Assembly (NCBI RefSeq): GCF_009695935.1
Contig: NZ_VUMY01000005.1
Span: 1-64,000, forward strand
DNA from: Mobiluncus porci
GTDB lineage: Bacteria; Actinomycetota; Actinomycetes; Actinomycetales; Actinomycetaceae
DNA: 64,000 nt
Direction of reading: 5' to 3'
In this document: one piece after another, positions 30,728 through 32,172 of the stretch
Position numbering within the stretch: the first letter of the stretch is position 1
Layout: every line of letters begins with the position of its first letter
Translations under genes and position numbers: made by a program
Notes under the pieces: model-generated
What the model saw: the letters and a program-made list of their open reading frames with translations, nothing else
Databases searched by the model: none
What the model was told of the DNA's origin: nothing

Positions 30728-31443
30728 ACATTTTGGCTACCACTTCGGGACTTCCCGACAAGGACGCAGCAAAACTTGCAGTTCCACCCCACGCCCAGGT
30801 CGTAATGGCGACCGGTAATGCCCACAAAGTGAAAGAAGTCGAGGCGATTCTTCGCCCCCTGGTGCCTTCCTTACGGGAAGGCGGGATTGTCGCCTCGGGA
30901 GAACTCGGGGCGCCCGAGCCGGTGGAAGACGGGACGTCTTTTTCCGCCAACGCGCTCATCAAGGCGCGCAGCCTCGGTAAACACGTCACTTTGCCGGTTC
31001 TATCCGACGATTCCGGGTTGACAGTTGACATTCTGGGTGGCGCCCCGGGAATTTTTTCCGCCCGCTGGTGCGGACATCACGGAGACGACAAGGCGAACCT
31101 CGACCTCTTGTTGAACCAACTGTCCGATATCCCCGACGACTACCGCACGGCCGCTTTCGTTTGCGCCGCAGTCCTGCTCGTCCCCGGAGGCGGAACCTAC
31201 CTCGGCAACGGGGTCATGGGCGGAAGGCTCATCCGCAAGCCGAAAGGCAAGAACGGTTTTGGCTACGATCCGATTTTTGTCGCCGACGGCCAAGACACCG
31301 ATAAGCCGCTGACAAATGCGGAACTGAGCCCCGAGGCGAAGAATGCTCTGTCTCACCGCGCGGCTGCCTTTTCACAACTGGCTCCCCAGTTGGAAGCGAT
31401 TCTCTCGATTCGCGCCTTACATCCGCGGGACCCAAGGTCCTGA
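30724..31443 (+). CDS. rdgB: RdgB/HAM1 family dITP/XTP pyrophosphatase
   Basis: This enzyme hydrolyses non-canonical purine NTPs to keep nucleotide pools clean. The 239-residue protein has the family motifs [69 protein letters not shown] and the terminal [13 protein letters not shown]. The first about 25 residues before VVMATGN are an extension relative to short homologs, imposed by the ATGA overlap with rph. A later start is not well supported. Confidence 0.95.
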
Positions 31444-31650
31444 GCCCGCGGCTGATTCGCGTCTTGTTGGTGTCTGGTTCAAGCCCCGCACAATTGTCTT
31501 AACAATCTACTGGAAGGGTCCCGAAAATACCTTGAAATTTCGGGAATTTGTGGATTTTTTCCACTTCGACATGCGACAATAATAAAGGAGGACACGGAAC
31601 GTCCTCAGGTTGCGTTTAATACGTGACCAAAGCGAGTTTCAGGAGGAATC
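31444..31650 (+). promoter_or_regulatory. Leader region of the small-protein pair
   Basis: The 207 bp hold two hairpin-capable stretches: CCCGAAA...TTTCGGG near 31519-31542 and GAGGAC-ACGGAAC-GTCCTC near 31588-31606. They end in a strong AGGAGG ribosome site at 31641. No canonical -35/-10 pair stands out. The long structured leader suggests post-transcriptional control of the following small genes. Confidence 0.4.
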
Positions 31651-31920
31651 ATGCTTGCTGTTGATGCTGCCGGAAGTTTGAACCCGGCCTTAACGAACCA
31701 AGCTTTTGTGCGTCCGGCATCCGAGCCGAACCCGAAAGCAGATAAGCCAGAGCCTGTCTCGAACACTGTGAAAACCGAGGCCGCGGCTACTGGCTCGCAC
31801 AGCGCTTTGAGCGCCAACGTGGGCGAATTCAAGCCGGTGGTAGGTCCTTCACAGCCTACCCAGAGCCATCTGCCTAACACCTACAAGTCTTCGTCTTCCA
31901 ACTTGGACGTTTACCTGTAG
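31651..31920 (+). CDS. Small protein of unknown family (89 aa), first of a pair
   Basis: The ATG follows AGGAGGAATC, one of the strongest ribosome sites in the window. The 89-residue product has no TM helix or signal peptide. It is rich in Pro, Ser, Asn, Ala and Thr and appears disordered (PNPKADKPEPVSNTVKTEAA), ending SSSSNLDVYL. I recognise no family. The next small gene starts 32 bp later on the same strand and the pair ends at a terminator, so they form a bicistronic unit. Confidence 0.6.
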   Translation: MLAVDAAGSLNPALTNQAFVRPASEPNPKADKPEPVSNTVKTEAAATGSHSALSANVGEFKPVVGPSQPTQSHLPNTYKSSSSNLDVYL

Positions 31921-31952
31921 AGACGGCACTAACCCACGAGAAAGGAGCAAAC

Positions 31953-32117
31953 ATGAATCCTATTTCCGGTGCAGCGCCAGTTATGGACGCCCAAACTATG
32001 AAAGAACTGATGGGCGTGGCGGTTGCCGCGCAAACCACGCAGGCCACCAAGATGGCCACTGCGGCGGCGGCACTAAAGGTTGCCAACGCCAACGCGGGCC
32101 TCGATGTGTGGGCCTAA
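31953..32117 (+). CDS. Small Ala-rich protein (54 aa), second of a pair
   Basis: The ATG at 31953 follows GAAAGGAGC at ideal spacing. The 54 residues MNPISGAAPVMDAQTMKELM and GVAVAAQTTQATKMATAAAA end NANAGLDVWA. The pattern (short N-terminus, then one Ala-rich amphipathic helix with a MDAQTMKELMGVAV-like start) loosely recalls YjfB-type putative motility proteins, but the match is weak and unproven. It overlaps no other gene and is followed directly by a strong terminator. Confidence 0.55.
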   Translation: MNPISGAAPVMDAQTMKELMGVAVAAQTTQATKMATAAAALKVANANAGLDVWA

Positions 32118-32135
32118 GTTCAATCCAGAGCTACC

Positions 32136-32172
32136 CAGCCGCGTCAACATTGTTGGCGCGGCTGTGGTTTTT
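32136..32172 (+). terminator. Terminator between small-protein operon and murI
   Basis: The stem CAGCCGCG...CGCGGCTG with inner CAAC/GTTG is followed by GGTTTTTC. It ends the plus-strand small-protein operon. Because murI converges and stops at 32173, it may serve both directions. Confidence 0.8.

Follow-up and report, generated by a model that had tools for sequence, protein, structure and literature searches.

The rdgB-murI gap and its two genes

The analysed stretch of 64,000 nucleotides from Mobiluncus porci is referred to as the window. Within it, the interval 31444-32172 is the exact gap between rdgB, which lies on the + strand with its stop at 31443, and murI, which lies on the - strand with its stop codon from 32173. 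Two ORFs were found in this gap, both on the + strand. ORF1 (31651..31920) encodes an 89-aa predicted disordered protein with conserved NPALTNQAFxRP and LPxxYKS...LD motifs, and ORF2 (31953..32117) encodes an Ala-rich protein of 54 aa that is predicted to form one helix and ends in a conserved LDxxA. The two ORFs are separated by 32 nt, and each has its own ribosome site, namely, AGGAGG located 4 nt before the ATG of ORF1 and AAAGGAG located 5 nt before the ATG of ORF2. An intrinsic terminator with a 13-bp stem and a T-run follows at 32136..32164 (+ strand); it is present here and is not kept in relatives because its segment is missing from the other genomes. Two ORFs, ribosome sites, a structured leader and a terminator had been described in a previous sequence-only reading of this DNA, and all of them were located in the window as described. 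The surroundings consist of housekeeping genes, and flagellar genes are not nearby.

AlphaFold2 predicted ORF1 without secondary structure (pLDDT 56), and ORF2 was modelled with a single helix (residues 13-44, mean pLDDT 67). Although both models are of low confidence, they fit the earlier description of a disordered and an Ala-rich protein.

Conservation and distribution

Both ORFs were present in all four Mobiluncus genomes analysed, with order and place kept, always after rdgB, and a search of 59 related genomes gave identities of 74-85% to the window ORFs in the other three (G001-G003). A metagenome-assembled genome of the sister genus (G008) carries an 89-aa ORF1 (40%) and a 61-aa ORF2 (32%), likewise arranged in this order behind rdgB. 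The dN/dS values for ORF1 and ORF2, determined by the Nei-Gojobori method for pairs where dS was estimable, were about 0.06-0.14. In contrast to the ORFs, the flanking intergenic DNA has diverged across the genomes. Two parts of ORF1 are invariant, NPALTNQAFxRP close to its start and LPxxYKS....LD at its end, while ORF2 keeps MD..TMK..M..A and the C-terminal end LDxxA. As the pair is conserved in G001-G003 and G008 under purifying selection with low dN/dS, chance ORFs were ruled out; ORF1 and ORF2 are real genes, and the two-gene unit suggested from the window letters was borne out.

The sequence-only reading had also held that the two proteins match no known family and had proposed a sensitive profile search in Actinomycetaceae. 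That search found ORF1 above noise in 5/213 family genomes, and no further genome with ORF1 was found by profile search in an even sample of 396 from the order. Neither protein matched Pfam, NCBIfam, PDB sequences or Rfam, and the PHROG search gave only weak matches, none of them convincing, so the absence of a known family holds. A phage origin was rejected on the absence of relatives in viral contigs and of a convincing PHROG match, and a known RNA family was rejected on the Rfam result. The ORF1 and ORF2 proteins are new, lineage-restricted families.

Flagellin was found in 17/213 family genomes, belonging to 6 of the 36 genera; these 17 include all five ORF1 carriers. The remaining flagellated genera of the family lack ORF1, the rdgB locus included, and inspection of the region behind rdgB in 26 further genomes, including 12 flagellin-positive family members, revealed no hidden orthologue. 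In the RdgB tree, G008 is sister to Mobiluncus (100/99), and the five carriers form one clade. Therefore, the co-occurrence with flagella, which had been proposed as a check, is positive in 5/5 carriers and at the same time confounded by the single clade: it counts as one evolutionary event, which alone is weak evidence.

Comparison with YjfB, flagellin and FlgM

A loose resemblance of ORF2 to YjfB-like motility proteins had been noted earlier, which would make ORF2 a divergent YjfB-type putative motility protein and ORF1 its partner. ORF2 and YjfB (PF14070) are alike in their small size and central helix, and one pair, the G008 ORF2 and an actinobacterial YjfB, gave a shuffle p of ~0.03, uncorrected for many pairs. 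However, PF14070 gave no match up to E = 10 in five ORF2 homologues and no match anywhere in the genome, and hhalign of ORF2 against actinobacterial YjfB was nil (probability 0.7%), whereas actinobacterial YjfB proteins themselves match PF14070. The resemblance was accordingly abandoned, and we give almost no credence to a YjfB-type ORF2. YjfB-like proteins of 52-53 aa with PF14070 do occur in another actinobacterial family, f47 (L088, L089, L090 and L093), and at L088 one such gene lies before a chemoreceptor-like gene.

A similar helix and tail in ORF2 and flagellin prompted the idea that ORF2 mimics the flagellin C-terminus (FliC D0 C-terminal helix; FliW/FliS binding). This was rejected, with shuffle p values of 0.05-0.94 over 16 pairs and a nil hhalign result. 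The likeness of the C-terminal tails of ORF1 and ORF2 (LDVYL / LDVWA) was discarded as well, hhalign being nil.

ORF1 was also considered as an unrecognised FlgM-like anti-sigma factor, that is, a small disordered protein that would be exported and would restrain the flagellar sigma factor, both binding and export being putative. With its 89 aa, ORF1 is like FlgM in size and predicted disorder, and the host has a flagellar-type sigma factor with regions 2, 3 and 4, whose gene adjoins flgN and fliD. Moreover, FlgM was reported absent from non-FlgFG actinobacterial classes (PMC10746217). However, the Pfam scan gave no FlgM match in ORF1 or its homologues, the sole match being a weak unrelated one to ChpA-C, and the C-terminal sigma-binding helices that define FlgM are not predicted in ORF1. 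Its conservation sits in short non-helical motifs that differ from those of FlgM, and a long distance separates the locus from the sigma gene. An FlgM-like role was therefore judged highly improbable.

Leader of ORF1

The leader of ORF1 contains a series of elements on the + strand. A putative extended -10 element (TG-C-GACAAT, 31572..31580) lies directly upstream of hairpin 1, and all four Mobiluncus genomes share ATGnnACAAT without change, within DNA that has diverged; a generic scan did not list the element. From its position just before hairpin 1, the ORF1 transcript would begin at the hairpin. CsrA binds GGA in hairpin loops (PMC7652899), and hairpin 1 (GAGGAC-ACGGAAC-GTCCTC, 31588..31606), which holds GGA at 31596-31598 in its loop, is the predicted first CsrA site. 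It is followed by hairpin 2 (GGTTGCGT-TTAAT-ACGTGACC, 31608..31628), a spacer hairpin that is also found in folds of fliC leaders. The Shine-Dalgarno (SD) hairpin (TTC-AGGAG-GAA, 31638..31648), with its AGGAG loop at 31641-31645, is the predicted second CsrA site and overlaps the ribosome-binding site. On the - strand, hairpin 1 (31588-31606) followed by a T-rich stretch also resembles an intrinsic terminator.

Hairpin 1 was compared across the carriers. It reads GAGACG-TGGAA-CGTCTC in G001, GTGAGGGCAA-AGGA-TTGCCCTCGC in G003 and TGTGGGA-GGAG-TCTCACG in G008; between these and the window, the stem sequences differ, while the pairing and the loop GGA are retained. In G002, the hairpin is interrupted by one A-C mismatch. 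Because MAFFT misaligned the arms of such short segments, this covariation was assessed manually, with shuffling as the test. Dinucleotide shuffles of the five ORF1 hairpins gave p = 0.012, 0.008, 0.15 (G002), 0.0002 and 0.022, and Fisher's combination of the five values, treated as independent, was ~1e-6, which is optimistic because the species are related. In agreement with the structured leader described earlier, the window leader folded with an MFE of -27.8 kcal/mol (z = -4.1). The whole leaders of G001, G002 and G008 were not unusually stable when folded, and thus the case rests on the specific hairpins.

Match to the fliC leader and its rarity

The ORF1 and fliC leaders of the same genomes follow a common plan, consisting of a GGA-loop hairpin, a second hairpin and a TCAGGAGG SD hairpin with an AGGAG loop. 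Hairpin 1 of fliC is GTCAGAC-AGGAA-GTCTGAC and variants, and apart from the SD, the two leaders are not alignable. In the SD stem, 96.9% of the cells were paired, and both-side changes (TA to AT) were found when the leaders of ORF1 were compared with those of fliC. In 500 shuffles, the values observed for percentage paired, changed-cell count and covariation score were never attained; the number of pairs with a both-side change was two, a count not unusual against the shuffles. Sliding the partner lowered these measures or at best equalled them. The stem has 3 Watson-Crick pairs in the window genome and 4-5 in most others. When folded to minimum energy, most Mobiluncus leaders favour alternative pairings over this short hairpin, which is present in the two G008 folds. 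As most of the CsrA hairpins selected by SELEX have four or fewer contiguous pairs (PMC7652899), such a weak stem is compatible with a CsrA site.

The rarity of this arrangement was evaluated with the site pattern TCAGGAGG-N3-9-ATG in the genomes G000 (the window genome), G003 and G008, which gave 38 sites, 37 of them distinct. Of the latter, 8/37 had a GGA-loop hairpin of 6 bp or more upstream, and 6/37 had an SD stem with 4 or more Watson-Crick pairs. Both elements, with an SD stem of at least 3 pairs, occurred at exactly 6/37 sites, namely, three of fliC and three of ORF1 (one each per genome). Since the SD search pattern was derived from fliC and ORF1 themselves, independent testing is confined to the structural criteria. 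In a sample of 162 SD-led ORFs, 20 had scattered GGA hairpins, and among those 20 only fliC and ORF1 also had a CAGGAGGA site.

Several other genes were inspected for the same arrangement. The gene fliD was rejected as a third member, as its GGA hairpin is found in G003 and is absent from G001 and G008. In G003, the gene for a 487-aa CWB2 secreted protein (L162:1606-3069) combines a TCAGGAGG site with a GGGA hairpin further upstream, lacks the SD hairpin, and may be a weaker CsrA target. The actinobacterial YjfB genes examined for CsrA-type leaders showed no consistent pattern. GGA-loop hairpins were likewise found on fliC in other flagellated genera of the family; from this, CsrA-type control looks ancestral for fliC, and ORF1 appears to have acquired it in the Mobiluncus lineage.

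CsrA, FliW and flagellar genes

CsrA is encoded in all ORF1 genomes (G000-G003 and G008) and in all 17 flagellin-positive family genomes. In G003, Pfam matches were obtained for CsrA, FliW, FlgN and the flagellar-type sigma factor; FliW adjoins flgL, and FlgN and the sigma factor are in the same cluster. The gene csrA was also present in family genomes in which no flagellin was found (G014, G228-G234 and G036, from genera g12, g27 and g34), and therefore CsrA there serves another purpose or is a relic. Beside fliC in G003 (L159:12202-18689), flagellin-like genes of odd build were observed, encoding a 421-aa flagellin with an N-terminal extension of ~140 aa, a 299-aa protein whose flagellin match is only partial, and a 261-aa protein of unclear kind. 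G001 carries several flagellin copies on contig C13 (572282-580828); within 9 kb, two of them point the same way and one is inverted, an arrangement that could allow recombination or switching.

These data also bear on whether the operon has nothing to do with motility, with the likeness of the leaders being coincidental or CsrA controlling another trait. Such a reading would agree with the location among housekeeping genes, the occurrence of csrA in family genomes without flagellin and the single-clade distribution. However, the two leader elements coincided only in fliC and ORF1 among the 37 sites, and hairpin 1 was retained with new stems in four species; we thus consider a motility-unrelated operon unlikely. 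Regarding the role in motility, secretion or signalling suggested by the sequence-only reading, the link to motility is probable, and it comes from the flagellin-type CsrA leader, which that reading described only as structured, more than from co-occurrence.

Proposed control and role

Taken together, we favour the reading that ORF1-ORF2 is a lineage-specific small-protein operon whose translation is probably timed together with that of flagellin by the FliW-CsrA checkpoint. The predicted CsrA sites are the loop of hairpin 1 with its GGA and the AGGAG loop that covers the Shine-Dalgarno sequence; CsrA bound there would block the ribosome. Once flagellin is exported, FliW would be freed and would remove CsrA, and both fliC and ORF1-ORF2 would then be translated. 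With translation in step with flagellin, ORF1 and ORF2 would appear at filament assembly. Judged from this timing, the two proteins are most likely a filament-stage accessory or export substrate, acting as a small export substrate or as a cytoplasmic partner of flagellin, FliW or FliS.

The chief rival reading is that the ORF1-ORF2 unit feeds back on FliW-CsrA, either through titration of CsrA by the leader or through binding of CsrA or FliW by ORF1 or ORF2, and thereby tunes flagellin synthesis. The leader has two predicted CsrA sites, the flaA mRNA of C. jejuni is known to titrate CsrA (PMC4894983), and binding is a fitting role for small proteins that are disordered or helical. However, the proteins are under strong purifying selection, and therefore RNA alone is not the function; moreover, ORF2 compared with the flagellin C-terminus was no better than shuffles. 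Feedback of this kind is accordingly regarded as rather doubtful, and co-translation with flagellin is retained as the preferred reading.

The locus had been put forward earlier as an undescribed system. The regulation is of a known kind, and what is undescribed is the proteins themselves. It is suggested tentatively, with somewhat less than even confidence, that ORF1 and ORF2 may have arisen in the Mobiluncus lineage, where they came under a flagellin-type RNA switch, either as new flagellar proteins of the filament stage or as new proteins that regulate the FliW-CsrA checkpoint of flagellin.

Significance and comparison with known CsrA-FliW systems

Flagellin itself is the best-known case of FliW-CsrA control, and Mobiluncus is a motile anaerobe associated with bacterial vaginosis. 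If the proposed control is true, an orphan two-gene operon under the same switch would widen the checkpoint beyond flagellin and provide a functional handle on two proteins without a family. An aspect of flagellar assembly in actinobacteria that has received little study would also become open to testing in a motile anaerobe. Furthermore, orphan small genes can be placed in a pathway by the anatomy of their leader where protein similarity fails.

The layout of the ORF1 leader agrees with two that have been established by experiment. In B. subtilis, CsrA represses hag via two sites, one of them over the SD, and FliW removes CsrA (PMC7652899). In C. jejuni, the flaA leader has two ANGGA stem-loops with compensatory changes, the second stem-loop lying over the RBS (PMC4894983). 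Unlike hag and flaA, the genes under the ORF1 leader encode two orphan small proteins, neither flagellin nor a known flagellar gene product, and CsrA binding is predicted; the spacing of the sites is 46 nt in the ORF1 leader vs 21 nt in C. jejuni flaA. The secondary CsrA targets of C. jejuni, flaG, flaB and flgI, are non-principal flagellar mRNAs that have GGA motifs near the SD and are bound by CsrA (PMC4894983). They encode known flagellar proteins, whereas ORF1 and ORF2 match none of these; in its motifs, the ORF1 leader is like them. As in hag and flaA, the ORF1 leader has two predicted CsrA sites, an upstream GGA-loop hairpin and a GGA loop over the Shine-Dalgarno sequence, and as in flagellin leaders, its stems show compensatory changes, and both CsrA and FliW are encoded in the genus.
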